Of a stretch of 34,007 bases of DNA, positions 2,968-34,007 are shown in pieces; the stretch's first letter is position 1, and the number at the start of each line of letters is the position of its first letter. The notes under the pieces were generated by a model. That model had not been told where the DNA came from, searched no databases, and saw only the letters and a program-made list of their open reading frames with translations. Position numbers and translations under genes: made by a program. The stretch comes from Hyphomicrobiales bacterium (GTDB lineage: Bacteria; Pseudomonadota; Alphaproteobacteria; Rhizobiales; Xanthobacteraceae): the NCBI GenBank assembly GCA_017304555.1, contig JAFKKS010000264.1:1-34007 (forward strand), read 5' to 3'.

Positions 2968-3849
2968 TCAGTCCGTGCGCATGATCTGCGACGGGTTAGC
3001 GCGCGGATCGCGCGGCTTCCATCGCCCTGCCTCGACCTGGCTGATGAAGTCGGCGACGAGGCGGTTGAACAACTCGGGCTCTTCGAGGTTGAGCGTGTGG
3101 CCGGACTTCGGGAAGACGGCGATGCCCGCACGCGGGATCGTCCGCTTGAGAAAGAGGCCAGGCTGAATGCAGTGATCGTCCTCGTCGCCGGTCATGATCA
3201 GCACTGGCGTGTCGAGTTTGCGGAACTCGGCCTCGAGATCGTAAAGCGAGGGCCGGCGCATCTGTACGCCGCGCATCGTATTCGCGGCGCCAAGCGGGTC
3301 ATGCTGCGCAAGCCGCTCGGCAAAGAGCTGCCACCCGCGCGGATCCTTTTCCTGGAACTGCACGCGTGACGCGCCTTCGGCATAGGTCGGCGCGAAATCC
3401 TTTGCGCCGCGCTCCTGGAAATTCTTTGCGACTTGCTCGGAAATGCCCTTGAAATAATCTTCGTGCGCCTTCTCCGCGCCGTAGCCCGCGCCCGCCGCGA
3501 CGGTTGAAAGCACCCGTTTTGGATGACGCAATGCCACGTGCAAAGCAGCGAAGCCGCCCATCGACAGCCCGACGACATGCGCCTTGTCGATGCCGGCCGC
3601 ATCGAGCACATCGACGATATCGTCGGCCGCGCGCGCCTGCGAGTAGCTGTCGACCTCGGAGGGAATGTCCGATGGCGGATAGCCGCGCGCCGCGAAAGTA
3701 ATGACGCGGTGCCGCCGCGCGAAGAAATTGAGCTGCGGCTCCCAGCTCCAGTGGCTGCCGCCGAACTCATGCACGAAAATGATCGGCGTGCCCTCACCTG
3801 CGGCTTCGTAGAACAGGCGGATGCCGTCGGTGGTCTTGGCGAAACTCAT
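2968..3849 (-). CDS. Alpha/beta hydrolase
   Basis: A 293-residue single-domain alpha/beta hydrolase. The oxyanion segment HEFGG is at about 27-31, the nucleophile elbow GLSMGG places Ser96 as catalytic Ser, the acid is probably Asp222 or Asp224 in TGDEDD, and His251 lies in KSGHTLNLEEP. No signal peptide is seen, so it should be cytoplasmic. A strong GGAGG site overlaps the SDR stop codon, and the two genes are 10 bases apart. Relatives include esterases, lactonases and C-C or amide hydrolases such as the vitamin B6 ring-cleavage product hydrolase. In this cluster a hydrolytic step on an imported nitrogen compound is plausible, but the bond cleaved cannot be read from sequence. Confidence 0.85.
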   Translation of the reverse strand: MSFAKTTDGIRLFYEAAGEGTPIIFVHEFGGSHWSWEPQLNFFARRHRVITFAARGYPPSDIPSEVDSYSQARAADDIVDVLDAAGIDKAHVVGLSMGGFAALHVALRHPKRVLSTVAAGAGYGAEKAHEDYFKGISEQVAKNFQERGAKDFAPTYAEGASRVQFQEKDPRGWQLFAERLAQHDPLGAANTMRGVQMRRPSLYDLEAEFRKLDTPVLIMTGDEDDHCIQPGLFLKRTIPRAGIAVFPKSGHTLNLEEPELFNRLVADFISQVEAGRWKPRDPRANPSQIMRTD

Positions 3850-26773: not shown

Positions 26774-27364
26774 TCACTCCGCTTCGACGCGCAGGCCGAA
26801 CTCCTCGGCGCTTTCCGACAGCCAACTCCAAAAGCTGCCGCACAGGCTTCGGAACATGGCGATGTCGAAACTTGAATCGGCATCGCTTCTCCACAGCATG
26901 ATGCCGATATGCGAGCAGACCGTGACTGCAACGTCATCGGCAGCGAAGGCACGAGGGTGAAGATCGATCGGCACGCCCTTCGCCAAAAGCGCGCGCACCT
27001 TCGCCCCCGAGACGCGCAAGACGCCGTAACCATCGGACTGGTCGGCGACGGCCGCATGCTCGCCAAGCGACTGTTCAAGGTCCGAGGCCAGCGGCCGTTC
27101 GCCCGCGCGGAGGGCGAACCAGGCTCGCGGTCCCGTGCCGAGTAATGTTATCTCATGGACGACGATACGCTTCGGCCCGCTCGGAAGCGCAATCCCGTAC
27201 GCGGTCTTGATCGCCTCCGCGAATCCGGAGGAGCGCGCGATAACCGTCGCGATCTGCAGGTCTTTACGCTCGGTGACGACGATACCGGCGTCTTTCGGCC
27301 CGCCTGGCACGAGAAGGCCGTCAAACGCGCTGCGCGCCTTCAATTGGAGAGCTGCATCAGCCAC
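26774..27364 (-). CDS. soxG: Sarcosine oxidase gamma subunit
   Basis: A 196-residue SoxG-type protein. Recognised features are the FDGLLVPGG-like N-terminal region, the DGYGVLRVSGAKVRALLAKGVPIDLHPRAF stretch (a GCV_T-like segment typical of the gamma subunit) and the C-terminal RSLCGSFWSWLSESAEEFG. The gene overlaps the end of soxA by 8 bases and is the last of soxBDAG. The subunit stabilises the heterotetramer and sits near the folate domain of SoxA. Length is normal for the family. Confidence 0.9.
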   Translation of the reverse strand: MADAALQLKARSAFDGLLVPGGPKDAGIVVTERKDLQIATVIARSSGFAEAIKTAYGIALPSGPKRIVVHEITLLGTGPRAWFALRAGERPLASDLEQSLGEHAAVADQSDGYGVLRVSGAKVRALLAKGVPIDLHPRAFAADDVAVTVCSHIGIMLWRSDADSSFDIAMFRSLCGSFWSWLSESAEEFGLRVEAE

Positions 27365-30353
27365 GGAGACGCACTCCTTCCGGGTCGACGAACACTGGCG
27401 AACAAATCACCACGTCCTGATCATTGTTGCGCATCGCGTCGAACGCGTGCACGCGTTCGCCGTGGCGCGCCGGCCCGTTCACCACGAGCGCAAGGCCGAT
27501 CCAGCCCTCGCATGTCGGCGAGTAGGCGACCGATGTGACGTAGCCTTGATCGTTGGCGGCGACGGCGGCGGCGCCGCCTGGGAGGATATGCGCGCCAGCG
27601 GTCAGACGCCGCCCCTTCTCGACCGGGCGAATGCCAACGAGCGTCGGACGGTCCGGCGCCATAAGCGCCGGACGGCCGGCCATCACCCGGCCGATGTAAT
27701 CCCTTTTCGTCGACATCATGCGGCCGAGCCCAAGGTCGCGCGCGACCGTTTGCCCATTCAATTCGTTACCCGCGACGTGCCCCTTCTCGATCCGCATCAC
27801 GCTCTGCGCTTCGGTTCCATAGGGGCAACCGCCAAGCGCACCGCACAGCGCCATGAGAGCTTCGAGAACGGCGGCGCCATAGCGCGCCGGCACCGCGAGT
27901 TCGTAGGCGAGCTCGCCCGAGAACGAGATGCGAAACAGCCGCGTCGGTATGCCTCGCAGGGGAATCTCACGGCACCCCATATACGGCAATGCGTCATTCG
28001 ACAGGTCGACGTCTGGCCCATAAAGCTGCATCAGCAGCTCGCGTGCTTTCGGTCCGGCCACCGCATATTGCGACCACTGCTCGGTGACCGAAACCATGCT
28101 GACATCGAGTTCGGGCCACAGCGCCTGATGGCAGAATTCCAGATGCTGCATGATCTTTGCGGCATTCGCGGTGGTCGTCGACATCACATAGTGATCTTCG
28201 GCGAAGCGCGACGTGGTCCCATCGTCCATGACGAAGCCGTCCTCGCGCAGCATCACGCCATAGCGCGCCTTGCCGACGGGGAGCGTCGAGAACGTGTTGA
28301 CGTAGACACGATCGAGAAATGCCGCAGCGTCTCGCCCTTGGATGTCGATGCGGCCCAGCGTCGAGACGTCGCAGACGCCGACGACCGAGCGAACCGTCCG
28401 CACTTCCCTCACAACGGTCGTGAGCCAGTCCTTCTCCCCGGATCGCGGAAAATATTGCGGTCGAAGCCACGGGCCGGCCTCGACCATGACGGCGCCATTT
28501 TCGAGCGCCCAGGCGTGCCCCGCCGTATGCCGCGTCGGCCTGAAATGCCGGTCGCGATGATGTCCTGCAAAGGCGCCGATCGCCACCGGCTGGTGTGGCG
28601 GGCGCGACAGGATCGTGCCGACATCGCTCATCGCCTGCCCTGTCAGGGCCGCCATCATCGCGTGGCCGTTGAGATTCGATGTCTTGCCCTGGTCGGTCGC
28701 CATGCCGAGCGTCGTGTAACGCTTCAAATGCTCGATGGAGCGAAAGCCCTCAGCATGGGCGAGCGTGATATCATCGGCCGTCACGTCGTTCTGCAGATCG
28801 ACAAATGCTTTGTGGCGGCTCTCGGCAACGTGCCATAGCGGCGCGACGGCGGTCGGCTCATCCTCCGCGCGTGGTTGCGGCGCAGGCGCGGCCGAGAAAC
28901 CGCAAGCGGCAGCAGCAGCCGCGCCCGCTTCGCTTCCCTTGCGCAGGCTTTCCGCCAGCCCGAGGTCACCGTTCGCCGCGCCGGCCACCGTCATGCCGTC
29001 CGGCAAATCGCCTGGGACGAACGTCGACAGCGCGTCCGACCAGCGCGGCTTCCCGCCGCGATGCGTGGTGAGCGCAACTTGCGGATTCCAGCCGCCCGAT
29101 ACGGCAACGAGGTCGGCTGTGAGTATCTGGCGTTTTCCGGCAACTGAAACGATGGCGGAGGTCACGCCCCTCGCACCACCCGTGACGTTGACAATGTATC
29201 CTCCGAGCAGAACGCGCACGCCGCCGGCGGCGGCCGCCTTGGTGAGGTTCTCGTCGACGCTCGCACGCGGATCGACAACTGCCTCAACCTGCGCGCCTGC
29301 GGCGACAAGGTCGGCAGCAGTCCGCCAGCCGTCATCATTGGTTGTGAAGACGACCGCCTTGCGTCCAGGCAAGACACCGAAACGATTCAAATAGGTGCGT
29401 ACCGCCGACGCCAGCATGACGCCGGGCCGATCGTTACCGCCGAATACAATGGGACGCTCGGTTGCCCCCATCGCGTTGACGCAACGCTTCGCGGCGATGT
29501 GCCAGAACCGCTGGCGTGGAACGCCGGCCGCAGGAGCCGTCACGTGGTCCGCAACGCGTTCGAGCGCGCCATAGACTTCACTGTCGTAGGCGCCGAAAAC
29601 CTGTGTGCGCGACATCACGCAGACATTTGGCAGGCTCCTGAGTTCTCCGCCCGCCGCAGCCGCGAACAGATGCGCGGGAGCGTCATCGATCGTCTGGCGC
29701 TCGCTTAGAAGACGGCCGCCCAACTGCGCATCGTCCTCGCAAAGAATGACGCGTGCACCACTGCGCCCGGCCGCGAGAGCGGCCGCAAGCCCAGCGGGGC
29801 CGGAACCGACGACCAGGACGTCGCAGAATGCGTAAGCTTTTTCGTAGTGGTCGGGATCCGGGCTTTCGCTTGCCCGCCCGAGGCCGGCGGCGCGGCGAAT
29901 GAGCGGCTCGTAGACCTTCTCCCAGAAAGACGCCGGCCACATGAAGGTCTTGTAGTAGAAGCCGCCGACGAACAGCGGCGATGCGATCTGATTGATCGCA
30001 AGGATGTCGAAGGCGAGCGACGGCCAGCGGTTCTGGCTCGCGGCTTCCAGGCCGTCATAAAGCTCGATCGTGGTCGCTCTCGTATTCGGCTCGCGTCGCG
30101 CGCCACCCCGCAACTCGATCAGCGCGTTCGGCTCCTCGGGGCCTGCGCTGAAGATGCCGCGCGGCCGGTGATACTTGAACGAACGGCCGATGAGTTTGAC
30201 GCCGGCGGCGATCAAGGCCGACGCGAGCGTGTCACCCGCATAGCCGCTGTAAGACTTGCCGTCGAAGGTGAACGCCAGCGGCCGGTTGCGATCGACGCGG
30301 CCTTCGATCGCGCCTCCAGCCGGGAGACGATTGGGTTGCGCCATGTCGCTCAT
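27357..30353 (-). CDS. soxA: Sarcosine oxidase alpha subunit
   Basis: A 998-residue subunit of heterotetrameric sarcosine oxidase, which demethylates sarcosine to glycine and passes the one-carbon unit to tetrahydrofolate. An N-terminal 2Fe2S-ferredoxin-like domain without cysteines (about 20-90) is followed by a Rossmann domain with DVLVVGSGPAGLAAALAAG (about 178-196) for the NAD cofactor. The C-terminal third is a folate-binding aminomethyltransferase (GCV_T) domain with VGVCDVSTLGRIDIQGRDAAAFLDRVY. ATG at 30353 overlaps the soxD stop as ATGA; a longer reading to 30467 would run through soxD. Length and domain order are normal. Confidence 0.95.
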   Translation of the reverse strand: MSDMAQPNRLPAGGAIEGRVDRNRPLAFTFDGKSYSGYAGDTLASALIAAGVKLIGRSFKYHRPRGIFSAGPEEPNALIELRGGARREPNTRATTIELYDGLEAASQNRWPSLAFDILAINQIASPLFVGGFYYKTFMWPASFWEKVYEPLIRRAAGLGRASESPDPDHYEKAYAFCDVLVVGSGPAGLAAALAAGRSGARVILCEDDAQLGGRLLSERQTIDDAPAHLFAAAAGGELRSLPNVCVMSRTQVFGAYDSEVYGALERVADHVTAPAAGVPRQRFWHIAAKRCVNAMGATERPIVFGGNDRPGVMLASAVRTYLNRFGVLPGRKAVVFTTNDDGWRTAADLVAAGAQVEAVVDPRASVDENLTKAAAAGGVRVLLGGYIVNVTGGARGVTSAIVSVAGKRQILTADLVAVSGGWNPQVALTTHRGGKPRWSDALSTFVPGDLPDGMTVAGAANGDLGLAESLRKGSEAGAAAAAACGFSAAPAPQPRAEDEPTAVAPLWHVAESRHKAFVDLQNDVTADDITLAHAEGFRSIEHLKRYTTLGMATDQGKTSNLNGHAMMAALTGQAMSDVGTILSRPPHQPVAIGAFAGHHRDRHFRPTRHTAGHAWALENGAVMVEAGPWLRPQYFPRSGEKDWLTTVVREVRTVRSVVGVCDVSTLGRIDIQGRDAAAFLDRVYVNTFSTLPVGKARYGVMLREDGFVMDDGTTSRFAEDHYVMSTTTANAAKIMQHLEFCHQALWPELDVSMVSVTEQWSQYAVAGPKARELLMQLYGPDVDLSNDALPYMGCREIPLRGIPTRLFRISFSGELAYELAVPARYGAAVLEALMALCGALGGCPYGTEAQSVMRIEKGHVAGNELNGQTVARDLGLGRMMSTKRDYIGRVMAGRPALMAPDRPTLVGIRPVEKGRRLTAGAHILPGGAAAVAANDQGYVTSVAYSPTCEGWIGLALVVNGPARHGERVHAFDAMRNNDQDVVICSPVFVDPEGVRLRG

Positions 30354-30634
30354 GACGTTGCCGTCCACGACTTCGACGTGCGCGTCAGTTTGGCGCCCTC
30401 GATCACATGCGTGCGCGTGTTGCGCGTGACCGTCAGCCAGGAGCGGCAGCCGCCCCCGTGATACCAAAGCTCATCGTGCAGCCCTGCGGGATTGTCGCGG
30501 AGGTGAACGTATTCGTGGAACCTTGCAGCGGCGTCCGGTGACGCCGGATCCGGCCGCTGCGCGAGAGACGCATCGCCGAGATAGGTGAACTCCGTGAGGT
30601 CACGGACGCCGCAGAAAGGGCATGGAATGCGCAT
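30350..30634 (-). CDS. soxD: Sarcosine oxidase delta subunit
   Basis: A 94-residue zinc-binding subunit. The ligands match the family: Cys5 and Cys8 in CPFC, His59, and Cys63 in HGGGC. The LGDASLAQRPDP and FHEYVHLRDNPAGLHDELWYH stretches are typical. It lies 9 bases after soxB and overlaps soxA by four. It binds SoxB in the heterotetramer and is needed for assembly. Confidence 0.95.
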   Translation of the reverse strand: MRIPCPFCGVRDLTEFTYLGDASLAQRPDPASPDAAARFHEYVHLRDNPAGLHDELWYHGGGCRSWLTVTRNTRTHVIEGAKLTRTSKSWTATS

Positions 30635-30643
30635 GACGTCGTC

Positions 30644-31894
30644 TCAATGCAAATTCGGTTGGGCGCCCGCGCCCTTCTCGTCGATGACGGCGCCCGAGGC
30701 GAAACGATCCAGTCGGTACGCCGCGGCGTTCGGATGGGATTGCCCCGTCGCGATGAGGTGAGCAAAGCACCAGCCCGAGGCGGGGGTCGCCTTGAAGCCG
30801 CCATAGCACCAGCCGCAATTGAGAAAGAGGTTTTCGACCGGCGTGCGGTCGATGATCGGCGAGCCATCCATCGACATGTCCATGAGGCCGCCCCACGAAC
30901 GCAGCAGCCGCACGCGCCCGATCATCGGCATCAGCGCCATGCCGCTCTCGCAAACATCTTCGACGACGGGCAGATTGCCGCGCCGCGCATACGAGTTGTA
31001 GCCGTCGATGTCGCCGCCAAAGACCAGCCCGCCCTTGTCGGACTGGCTGACGTAGAAGTGGCCGGCGCCGAAGGTGATGACGCCCGGCACCAGCGGCTTC
31101 AGCCCTTCGGACACGAAAGCTTGCAGCACATGGCTCTCGATCGGCAGCCGAAGCCCCGCCATCGCGCCGAGTTGCGAGGTTGCCCCGGCGACCGCGAGAC
31201 CAACCTTCTTTGCCTTGATATCGCCGCGCGTCGTTTTCAATCCAACAACACGACCGTCTTCGATTGCGAGACCGACGACCTCGCAATTCTCGATGATATC
31301 GACGCCCCGATCACTCGCACCGCGCGCAAAGCCCCAAGCGACGGCGTCGTGACGCGCGGTGCCGCCGCGCCGCTGCAGCAAGCCGCCCTGGATCGGAAAA
31401 CGCGCGTCGTCGAAATTCAGAAACGGCGCCATCGCCTTCACGGCGTTACGGTCCAGCAACTCCGCATCCGCACCGTGCAGCCGCATGGCGTTGCCGCGCC
31501 GCGCATAGGCGTCGCGCTGCGCGTCGGAGTGATAGAGGTTGAGTACGCCGCGCTGGCTGACCATGGCGTTGTAGTTGAAATCCTGCTCCAGTCCTTCCCA
31601 CAGCTTCAACGACTGCTCGTAGAAGGCCTCGTTACCGGGGAGGAGATAGTTGGAGCGGATGATCGTCGTATTGCGCCCGACATTGCCGCCGCCGAGCCAC
31701 CCTTTTTCGATTAGCGCGACATTTGAAATGCCGTGGTTCTTGGCGAGGTAGTAGGCCGTCGCGAGCCCATGCCCGCCGGCCCCCACCACGACCACGTCGT
31801 AAGCGTCACGTGGGGTCGCCTTACGCCACTGCTCGGTCCAATTGCGGTGAGCGGTCAGTGCGTTCTTGGCCAGGGAGAAGACGGCGGAGGAAAT
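30644..31894 (-). CDS. soxB: Sarcosine oxidase beta subunit, start codon abnormal
   Basis: FAD/FMN subunit of sarcosine oxidase that oxidises the methylamine. The FAD motif VVVGAGGHGLATAYYLAK and the FMN-linking His (about His182 in GGTARHDAVAWGFA) are present, as is the C-terminal WCYGGFKATPASGWCFAHLIA. The family N-terminus FSLAKNALTAHRNW is normally preceded by five or six residues and an ATG. Here no ATG or GTG is available. The codon in the right place is ATT at 31894, giving 416 residues, the expected length. A TTG at 31969 is in frame but adds 25 unrelated residues and overlaps the divergent regulator start. A CTG at 31873 is another option. The start may be rare, mutated or mis-sequenced. 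Confidence 0.88.
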   Translation of the reverse strand: MSSAVFSLAKNALTAHRNWTEQWRKATPRDAYDVVVVGAGGHGLATAYYLAKNHGISNVALIEKGWLGGGNVGRNTTIIRSNYLLPGNEAFYEQSLKLWEGLEQDFNYNAMVSQRGVLNLYHSDAQRDAYARRGNAMRLHGADAELLDRNAVKAMAPFLNFDDARFPIQGGLLQRRGGTARHDAVAWGFARGASDRGVDIIENCEVVGLAIEDGRVVGLKTTRGDIKAKKVGLAVAGATSQLGAMAGLRLPIESHVLQAFVSEGLKPLVPGVITFGAGHFYVSQSDKGGLVFGGDIDGYNSYARRGNLPVVEDVCESGMALMPMIGRVRLLRSWGGLMDMSMDGSPIIDRTPVENLFLNCGWCYGGFKATPASGWCFAHLIATGQSHPNAAAYRLDRFASGAVIDEKGAGAQPNLH

Positions 31895-31937
31895 TGGCCC
31901 GCTCGGCCGGCAAAATGTGCTATCGCTGACCGCGTTT

Positions 31938-31949
31938 CTTACCTGTAAG
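31938..31949. promoter_or_regulatory. Palindrome CTTACCTGTAAG in the soxB/regulator gap
   Basis: CTTAC and GTAAG arms flank two bases, ending 10 bases before the regulator ATG at 31960. It lies in the 65-base gap between divergent soxB and the AraC-type gene, so it could be an operator or part of a promoter. It is short, and I cannot match it to a known GbdR site. Confidence 0.3.
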
Positions 31950-31959
31950 CGACGTTTCC

Positions 31960-32970
31960 ATGTCCACAAAGGACAACACAGTTCCAGCCAGACCGAAAAC
32001 GATCGGATTTCTCCTGGTGGAGAACTTCTCGCTGTTGTCGTTCGCTGTCGCTGTCGAACCGCTGCGGGCGGCGAACGTCCTGAGCGGCCGCAACCTCTAC
32101 GCCTGGCGCTTCATCGCCCCGAACGAGATTGCGGCGACCGCTTCCATCGGCGTGAAGCTCCACCTCGATGGCGATCTCGCAAGCGACGAGCGGCTGGACA
32201 TGCTTTTCGTTTGTGCCGGCGGCAATCCGGCGCGCCATCGCGATCCGGCGACGTTTCGCTGGCTGCGCCGCCTTGCACGGCGCGGCACGCCCCTCGGCGG
32301 CCTCTCCGGCGGCTCCTATGTCCTTGCGCGCGCCGGCCTCCTCGACAATCGCCGCTGCACGATTCACTGGGAGCACATGGCGGCGTTCCGCGAGGAGTTC
32401 CCACACATCGATGTGCGCGCCACCCTGTTCGAGATCGATCGCGACCGCTATTCGTGCGCCGGCGGTATCGCCTCGCTCGACATGATGCATGCGATCATCG
32501 AAGGGGATTGCGGGGCGGCATTGGCCAACGCCGTCACCGAATGGTTCGTCCAGACATCCGTGCGTCCCGGCAGCGGCGCGCAACGGATGGAACCGCGCGA
32601 GCGGCTCCATATTCTCAACGAGCCGCTGATCAAAGCCATCAAGTTCATGGAGCGGCGCTTTGACGAGCCAATCGACGTCAACGCTCTCGCCAACGTGGCG
32701 GGTGTGTCGGCGCGCCATCTACAACGCCTCTTTGCGCAACATCTCGGAACCACCGTAGAGAAATATCTCTTCTCGCTACGCCTCGATAGAGGGCGCGAGC
32801 TCCTGCGCCAATCGAACCTTCCCGTTCTCGATGTCGCGCTCGCGTCCGGGTTCTCGACAGCCGGTCACTTTTCCCGTTCATACAAGGCAAAGTTCGGGTT
32901 GGCGCCGCGCGACGAGCGCCGCGCGGCCCGCATCGTCTCCCTCAGCCGCAAGCCTGTACGACCCCGCTGA
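31960..32970 (+). CDS. AraC-family regulator with GATase1-like domain (GbdR/GlxA type)
   Basis: A 336-residue regulator. Residues about 12-190 form a DJ-1/GATase1-like sensor domain, with GLSGGSYVLARAGLLDNRRCTIHWEH at 114-139; the usual nucleophile region has Gly-Gly-Ser here. Residues about 235-325 are the paired AraC helix-turn-helix motifs (VNALANVAGVSARHLQRLF and VLDVALASGFSTAGHFSRSYKAKFGLAPR). This architecture is that of GbdR, CdhR and relatives, which activate glycine betaine, dimethylglycine, sarcosine or carnitine genes. It diverges from soxBDAG, so regulation of sarcosine use is the natural reading. Confidence 0.9.
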   Translation: MSTKDNTVPARPKTIGFLLVENFSLLSFAVAVEPLRAANVLSGRNLYAWRFIAPNEIAATASIGVKLHLDGDLASDERLDMLFVCAGGNPARHRDPATFRWLRRLARRGTPLGGLSGGSYVLARAGLLDNRRCTIHWEHMAAFREEFPHIDVRATLFEIDRDRYSCAGGIASLDMMHAIIEGDCGAALANAVTEWFVQTSVRPGSGAQRMEPRERLHILNEPLIKAIKFMERRFDEPIDVNALANVAGVSARHLQRLFAQHLGTTVEKYLFSLRLDRGRELLRQSNLPVLDVALASGFSTAGHFSRSYKAKFGLAPRDERRAARIVSLSRKPVRPR

Positions 32971-33017: not shown

Positions 33018-33575
33018 TCACAGCCGAGCGGACAAGCCGGCCGGCACACTGGGCGACTGCGCCGGCCGCATATCGGCCCACCATCTCTCCACCGCCGCTG
33101 CCTCCGCCGGCAGCGAAACAAAGAACGGCGAGGCAAACTGCGCCCACGCTTCGTAGAACGTCGGCGAAACCGCGGTGAGAATGGGCACCTTGGCTTCCAT
33201 CGCGGCGGCGAAAGCAGGCGCGAGGCCCGCGCGCGCCGCTTCGAGCTAGCCGAATTTGCTCAGGATCACGAGATCGCATCCCGCTGCGATATCGCGCTGG
33301 ATCGCGTCGCTAGCGGAGACGGCGCCGGCCCCATCGAGGTGACAAGCTTCCGAACCAGGCCCGAGGTCCTGAAAGATCGGATGCAGGCTTCCGTCACAAA
33401 TGCTTCGCAACCGGCCGGCGCTGCAGGCGCGATCGGCCAGCCCGTGCCCCTCCTCGATAACACCGGCAATGCGCGTGGACGACTTCCGGCGATCGACGAA
33501 TTCGCGAAACAGGTCTTGAACAACAGCGCTGGGCGCGCCCTGCACGACCGCGATGATCTTGGCGGCTTCACTCAT
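33018..33575 (-). pseudogene. DUF2478-type protein interrupted by an in-frame amber codon
   Basis: From ATG at 33575 (GGGAGAG upstream) one reads 109 residues ending DIAAGCDLVILSKFG, then TAG at 33248-33246. The same frame stays open to 33018 with LEAARAGLAPAFAAAMEAKVPILTAVSPTF and more. In relatives I recall, SKFG is followed by Lys then LEA, so one base change from AAG to TAG explains the stop. The whole length, 185 codons including the amber, fits the family. DUF2478 proteins have no settled function; the preserved C-terminal frame argues that the stop is recent, an error, or read through. It diverges from nnrS across a gap holding an FNR/NnrR-type palindrome. Confidence 0.75.
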
Positions 33576-33650
33576 TGTGCTCTCCCGAAGGCGGCAATCC
33601 TGCGCCTTGGATCAACGCATGACAATCCGGCAGACCGGCGGGTACTTTTT

Positions 33651-33664
33651 TTGCGCTAGCGCAA
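33651..33664. promoter_or_regulatory. FNR/NnrR-type binding site (perfect palindrome TTGCGCTAGCGCAA)
   Basis: A perfect 14-base palindrome of the TTGnnnnnnnnCAA form bound by the CRP/FNR superfamily, with the TTGCG-N4-CGCAA version close to sites of nitric-oxide-responsive NnrR/DNR regulators. Its centre is about 45 bases from the nnrS ATG and about 82 from the DUF2478 start, so it could serve either gene. With a centre at -41.5, the nnrS transcript would begin almost at the ATG, and the DUF2478 transcript would have a leader of about 40 bases. NnrS is a known member of NO regulons, which supports the call. Confidence 0.7.
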
Positions 33665-33702
33665 GATCGAACGGCCAAACGCAATGTATCGTGTCCGAGA
33701 CC

Positions 33703-34007
33703 ATGAAGACGCCCTCACCTACCTATCCGCCGATCCTGCTGCACGCGTTTCGCATCTGCTTCTTGCTCGCGGCGATCTGGGCAGCAGCGGCCGTCCCTCT
33801 CTGGCTCCTCTCCTATTCCGGGATCATCAGCCTTTCGAGCGCCTATGGCGATGTGAACTGGCACGCACATGAACTGATCTTCGGCTATGCGGCGCTCGTC
33901 GTTTGCGGCTTCCTGTTTACGGCGATACCGAACTGGACCGGCCGCCTTCCAGTCTCCGGTTGGCCCTTGGCCACCCTCGTATTCCTTTGGCTGGTTGGGC
34001 GCATCGC
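33703..34007 (+). CDS. nnrS: NnrS family protein, N-terminal part
   Basis: The first 101 codons of a membrane protein that continues beyond the right edge with no stop. It shows an N-terminal membrane segment (CFLLAAIWAAAAVPLWLLS at about 19-37), the hallmark WHAHELIFGYAALVVCGFL with His residues that may bind haem, and the family motif TAIPNWTGRLPVSGWP. NnrS is a haem- and copper-containing inner-membrane protein linked to nitrosative stress and denitrification. ATG at 33703 with a weak GAG site is preferred over an in-frame GTG at 33691. A 62-residue frame at 33684-33872 is a shadow of this gene. Confidence 0.88.
   Translation, partial: MKTPSPTYPPILLHAFRICFLLAAIWAAAAVPLWLLSYSGIISLSSAYGDVNWHAHELIFGYAALVVCGFLFTAIPNWTGRLPVSGWPLATLVFLWLVGRI

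Follow-up and report, generated by a model that had tools for sequence, protein, structure and literature searches.

A perfect NnrR-type palindrome between nnrS and an interrupted DUF2478 gene, with counterparts in related genomes

The intergenic region between nnrS and a DUF2478 gene of a Hyphomicrobiales bacterium (family Xanthobacteraceae) contains a complete 14-base palindrome, TTGCGCTAGCGCAA, at positions 33651-33664. This palindrome is very probably a real nitric oxide (NO) response switch that is functional for nnrS, with binding predicted. It lies in a stretch of 34,007 nucleotides, called the window here, which is the whole of contig C105 of the draft genome. We consider it likely that the palindrome is the site of an NO-responsive, NnrR-type activator that would serve nnrS and, in relatives, DUF2478 too, and that the DUF2478 arm has decayed in this genome. 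Both the NnrR motif and nnrS as an NnrR target have already been described in the available part of a published regulon analysis (PMC1274295). Because control of nnrS by NnrR is established, the site alone is ordinary; the new part is the DUF2478 side, namely its linkage to nnrS and the NnrR boxes in relatives.

Read directly, the palindrome was symmetric at 14 of 14 positions without a mismatch, and it contained the core TTGCG-N4-CGCAA of the alphaproteobacterial NnrR site. The initial annotation had described it as a perfect palindrome of the right family form, placed between divergent nnrS and a DUF2478-type gene, and both statements held: nnrS (PF05940) reads along the plus strand, DUF2478 (PF10649) along the minus strand, the stretch between them is 127 bp long, and nnrS, a known NnrR target, begins 39 bases behind the box. 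No strand was assigned to the palindrome itself (33651..33664). When up to 3 mismatches were allowed, it was the sole match in the whole window; this count is uninformative because shuffled windows gave a mean of 3.5 matches, and the informative features are the perfection and placement of the palindrome. In the genome (4.56 Mb, 542 contigs), TTGCGN4CGCAA occurred at 19 sites versus 11 for the reversed pattern. At 19 sites per 4.56 Mb, about 0.0005 strict sites are expected in the 127-bp stretch. The alphaproteobacterial NnrR regulon (Rodionov et al. 2005, PMC1274295) has the same core motif, TTGcgnnnncgCAA, within an 18-base consensus, ctTTGcgnnnncgCAAag. The flanks of the window's 14-mer differ (tt...ga versus ct...ag, agreement at 1 of 4 positions); in the available text the flanking consensus letters are printed in lower case, i.e. 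as less conserved. That regulon likewise includes nnrS, and its further targets hemN and nir genes recur in the present genome; DUF2478 is absent from the members named in the part of the paper available.

The nnrS gene starts with an ATG at 33703, and its 5' part (33703..34007, plus strand) runs off the contig end, scoring 109 bits for the part present (cut-off 28). Contig C46 opens with a fitting NnrS remainder covering profile positions 99-371, and no exact overlap was found between the window end (34007) and the start of that contig (G000:C46:1). On the opposite strand, DUF2478 is interrupted. Its open part comprises 109 codons up to a TAG (33246..33575, minus strand; PF10649, 69.3 bits), and beyond the TAG the frame continues without a frameshift until the next stop (33018..33245, minus strand). 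Read through the TAG, the domain reached 134 bits in all, with 1 inner TAG and a match in frame to 33081; the open part and the read-through both exceeded the cut-off of 22.3. The in-frame TAG (33246..33248, minus strand) takes the place of a codon that is AAG in three relatives with the same divergent pair (L153, L154 and L187) and that codes for the lysine in KFGK, a motif conserved in an alignment of ten DUF2478 sequences. No intact open frame across the DUF2478 domain is present in the window, an interruption that the initial annotation had missed. In this single draft genome, the TAG may be a true nonsense codon or may stem from faulty assembly. Among the matches listed for 100 genomes of the family, the window's DUF2478 was the only one with an inner stop. 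The orthologue searches returned more DUF2478 matches with inner stops (TAG, TAA and TGA; G410, G467, G228, G611, G601, G511 and others), and some of these, in G410, G467, G228, G611 and others, may fall at match ends. Identity of the window's DUF2478 to L153, L154 and L187 was 68, 61 and 66 % ahead of the stop and 53, 60 and 52 % past it; pairs among the three intact genes had 59-75 % before and 58-72 % behind the same position. A slight surplus of change past the stop is possible on this comparison.

A class II activator has its box centre at -41.5, which fixes the position of the -10 element. In the window, the hexamer TATCGT (33687..33692, plus strand) lies 22 bases behind the box, at class II spacing, and agrees with TATAAT at 4 of 6 positions, providing a -10-like element for nnrS. 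The DUF2478 side has a weaker counterpart, GATTGT (33622..33627, minus strand), with 3 of 6. We then took the best hexamer against TATAAT at offsets of 20 to 23 from the box, with shuffles as background. At least 4 matches at class II spacing were found on 4/5 nnrS sides and on 5/7 DUF2478 sides, 3 of the 7 being close relatives, whereas the shuffle background was 8.5 %. DUF2478-side hexamers with 4 matches occurred in L091, L154 and L187. The predicted nnrS start would lie about 4 bases ahead of the ATG, giving an almost leaderless message, which is odd.

The intact-orthologue searches, from which loci were fetched, spanned the order (397 genomes) and the family (391 genomes). Of the 3 loci from a search with one protein, L155 (Mycolicibacterium, E 3e-6 over 53 residues) was left out. 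The divergent DUF2478/nnrS pair was found in 3 more genomes, namely Rhizobiales bacterium 62-47 (L091/L153, G039), Xanthobacteraceae bacterium HKST-UBA78 (L154/L186) and G547 (L187). Each intergenic region contained one TTG-N8-CAA: TTGCTCCCGCGCAA, TTGTTCCTGCGCAA and TTGTGCTTGCGCAA, respectively. Thus, the box is kept in 4/4 divergent pairs, window included. By dinucleotide shuffling, the chance of such a box per region, window first, was 4.6, 6.5, 0.9 and 3.8 %; the product of about 1e-6 is too strong because the four intergenic regions are related.

Relatives with other gene arrangements were also informative. In L185, the closest orthologue of the window's DUF2478 (80 % identical), a similar regulator gene stands directly before DUF2478, an alternative oxidase is divergent to the regulator, and TTGCGCTGGCGCAA lies near both starts; no nnrS was found in the labelled 10.5-kb stretch around it. 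In G071, nnrS (L208) and DUF2478 (L095) are on different contigs, each with its own box: TTGCGCGAGCGCAA about 53 bases ahead of the nnrS open frame, and TTGCGCGGCCGCAA at L095. In L095, L202 and L204, a perfect NnrR box precedes DUF2478, and no nnrS adjoins the gene (in L202 and L204, none is labelled nearby); the latter two are close relatives of L095 that repeat its case. No NnrR box was found upstream of the orthologues L188 to L194, several of which adjoin nitrate reductase or molybdate transport genes.

Open frames were listed around the 18 strict sites outside the window (17 stretches). With the window's site included, 6/19 strict sites were at nitrogen-oxide, heme or alternative-respiration genes. 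On contig C468, a strict box lies in the interval that separates an alternative oxidase (PF01786) from a CRP/FNR regulator. C531 carries two strict boxes, with a hemN-family gene on one side and another CRP/FNR regulator on the other; past this regulator comes a gene for copper nitrite reductase (TIGR02376, 539 bits). On C410 (L012), the box TTGCGCCCGCGCAA (site 3032-3045) is about 107 bases before 5-aminolevulinate synthase (hemA; TIGR01821, 587 bits), with TAGGTT at class II spacing from it. The initial annotation had suggested scanning the genome for the same site upstream of nor, nir and nos genes. On C474, such a site was found where a gene fusing cytochrome c to copper nitrite reductase starts (nirK fusion; TIGR02376, 368 bits); it is only about 24 bases ahead of the likely start and badly placed for activation. 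No NosZ match exceeded the cut-off in this draft genome, and of 6 COX1-family matches, the 3 that were scanned gave 1 CcoN and 2 weak matches, none named NorB. The remaining 13/19 strict sites had no evident link to such genes, and the 11 reversed-pattern sites make the chance level of strict sites visible.

The CRP/FNR proteins encoded on C468 and C531 have strict boxes at their genes and adjoin alternative oxidase, hemN and nirK. Both lack the FNR-type cysteines, and the regulators of this genome, L091, L185 and L187 are alike, without FNR cysteines and with the common helix TTLHTVSRTLS. No NCBIfam model exceeded its cut-off for these regulators. According to the available part of the regulon study, the FNR cysteines are missing from DNR, NnrR and HcpR proteins, and CRP residues 180 and 181 correlate with motif bases (PMC1274295). 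Since the absence of FNR cysteines agrees with what is published for NnrR, the C468 and C531 proteins are candidates for an NnrR-type regulator. As a separate observation, an alternative oxidase gene (PF01786) adjoins an NnrR-like regulator or nnrS in L013 (G000:C468), L091, L185, L208 and L154, and in most of these loci the promoter common to regulator and oxidase carries TTGCG...CGCAA, which suggests an NO-insensitive alternative oxidase in the same regulon.

We next counted how often DUF2478 and nnrS are neighbours in 100 genomes of the family, using 87 DUF2478 and 83 nnrS positions with every genome set to 5 Mb; G012:C44, G047:C88, G001:C52:15347 (under cut-off) and G048:C107:1678 (second piece) were left out. 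Eight of the 87 DUF2478 genes lay within 5 kb of nnrS, versus 0.2 expected, and 10 of the same 87 lay within 15 kb, versus 0.6 expected. The nnrS-linked genes fall in several clades and need 4 changes on an 84-row tree. Their gene orders vary (divergent, nnrS before DUF2478, DUF2478 before nnrS), and because the linkage repeats in differing orders, it argues for a shared function of the two genes. Neighbours of nnrS-linked DUF2478 also include narJI with a MoCF protein, narK-like and CRP/FNR genes, or hemN. Other DUF2478 genes adjoin modA (TIGR01256, 249 bits), modB- and modC-like genes or MobA (TIGR02665), and beside some of them lies a small HTH protein (Pfam HTH_1), which we take to be ModE. 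One tally of gene neighbours covered 51 loci, of which L037 and L058 gave no DUF2478 row; it is no sample because the loci were chosen partly for a nearby nnrS.

Upstream boxes were then counted in 126 regions, which were left after removal of duplicate upstreams, of stretches shorter than 200 bp and of domains scoring below 50; the set excludes L048 (the window's own copy) and L186 (a copy of L154 from the same genome). A FixK/FNR-like box was present upstream of 24/126 DUF2478 genes, compared with 2.1 in shuffles (largest 7 in 200 rounds) and 34/499 other frames of the same loci (Fisher p 1e-4). For the NnrR-like box, the count was 8/126, compared with 0.5 in shuffles (largest 3) and 5/499 other frames (p 0.001), and the control pattern GTT-N8-AAC was found at 3/126. 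These p values are too strong because close relatives repeat boxes; by eye, there are about ten independent cases. One clade (L053, L070, L079, L086, L088, L090) has a near-identical FixK/FNR-like box, TTGATTTG[ACT]CGCAA, which lies about 150 bases ahead of the point where the domain begins, and in L079 electron-transfer-flavoprotein-like genes (FixB/FixC-like, by eye) lie beside DUF2478. In L049, L074 and L084, DUF2478 is opposite a large pyruvate:ferredoxin oxidoreductase-like gene (by eye) with molybdate-transport-like genes near, and in L074 and L084 a box of the form TTGAYGCGCRTCAA lies between DUF2478 and that large gene.

How far the palindrome acts on DUF2478 is the point at which explanations part. 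The initial annotation had supposed that the site drives both genes. Conservation of the box in 4/4 pairs and the boxes carried elsewhere by DUF2478 genes that have no adjoining nnrS speak for this, whereas the interrupted DUF2478 and its weak -10 speak against it for the window, and for these two reasons driving both may no longer matter here. One could go further and regard the palindrome as an activator site for nnrS only, with DUF2478 as a bystander whose promoter, if any, is unrelated. The better -10 on the window's nnrS side, the interrupted DUF2478 and the nnrS of L208, which alone carries its own box, agree with this, but the perfect boxes before DUF2478 without adjoining nnrS (L095, L202, L204), the 4-match DUF2478-side hexamers in L091, L154 and L187 and the repeated linkage of the two genes do not, and we regard it as unlikely. 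The further proposal that the family would be tied to the NO/low-oxygen response gained from the NnrR boxes and the nnrS linkage in relatives and lost from the orthologues L188 to L194, which are without a box. Because the majority of DUF2478 genes have other surroundings (molybdate, nitrate reductase and others), a link to NO is to be expected for some subgroups, not for the whole family.

The identity of the regulator can also be read differently, with an oxygen-responsive FNR or FixK binding the site in place of NnrR and low oxygen as the signal. FixK2 boxes are much alike, FixK/FNR-like boxes occur in other DUF2478 clades, and in vitro work on Bradyrhizobium diazoefficiens, in the available part of PMC6710368, reports activation of its divergent nnrR/nnrS promoter by FixK2. 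That promoter resembles the window's in having one CRP/FNR-type box between divergent genes, one of them nnrS; it differs in pairing nnrS with nnrR rather than with DUF2478, and FixK2 is the activator that was tested there (PMC6710368). Against an oxygen sensor stand the strict TTGCG/CGCAA form, found also at the regulators' own genes, the lack of FNR cysteines in those regulators, and the presence of the regulator within the gene cluster itself in relatives; this explanation is improbable, slightly more so than the preceding one. That the palindrome is a functionless chance string is hardly credible: the genome does hold 11 reversed-pattern sites, but the box recurs at the same place in 4/4 divergent pairs and the strict form is scarcely expected in so short a stretch. 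Under the preferred reading, an NO-responsive, NnrR-type CRP/FNR activator dimer would bind the palindrome at about -41.5 of the nnrS promoter, as in class II activation. In the arrangement kept by relatives, the dimer would also stand at the DUF2478 promoter, one site serving both genes. The window's DUF2478 arm would have decayed (nonsense codon or assembly error, poor -10), and the site would now mainly switch nnrS.

In the literature searched, as far as its text was available, the name DUF2478 appears only in a table of domains (PMC9674854), and its Pfam and InterPro numbers appear nowhere. We modelled the G039 orthologue from two sequences (mean pLDDT 73). Foldseek gave no match against the PDB at E <= 0.001. 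Alignment of Foldseek candidates to this model (pLDDT 73) by VIA-align gave Aquifex THEP1 (1ye8; Z 13.5, rmsd 3.2, 153 residues) and a human THEP1 relative (2i3b; Z 12.7, rmsd 3.9, 165 residues), and the next unrelated structures had Z of 8.1 and less. The corresponding profile, NTPase_1 (PF03266), matched 16/29 DUF2478 proteins at E up to 10, the best at 2.7e-5, and the modelled protein only at 0.054. Profile searches against PDB sequences gave a VP4 chain as their best match (E 0.0033 and 0.047), which was taken as chance. When 61 genomes of the order were searched for THEP1 (PF03266), only weak matches came back, most of them to the first 30 to 40 profile positions. The P-loop motif is GxxxxGK[ST]. 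To go by the model, DUF2478 would resemble THEP1 NTPases in predicted fold, besides a weak sequence match, but by eye this loop was seen in none of the ten aligned DUF2478 sequences. A distant relationship of DUF2478 to THEP1, with the usual loop missing, is probable. Nucleotide hydrolysis would then be unlikely, and a binding or carrier role would be possible.

We tentatively suggest that DUF2478 may be a P-loop-less THEP1-type protein with a role in handling molybdenum, or the molybdenum cofactor, for the anaerobic respiration of nitrogen oxides, and that several lineages may have come independently under CRP/FNR control (NnrR or FixK/FNR); we hold this with clearly less confidence than the reading of the palindrome. 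If true, the supply of DUF2478 would follow NO and low oxygen together with nnrS. The uncharacterised DUF2478 gains a testable setting from its recurrence next to nnrS, nar, narK and molybdate genes, from the CRP/FNR-type boxes in front of it and from its THEP1-like predicted fold.

Three further genes of the window encode a sarcosine-oxidase-like alpha subunit (27357-30467), an oxidoreductase of the DAO family (30644-31969) and a regulator of the AraC/DJ-1 type (31960-32970), the last of them divergent. The region 27357-32970 is probably a cluster for sarcosine or glycine-betaine breakdown.
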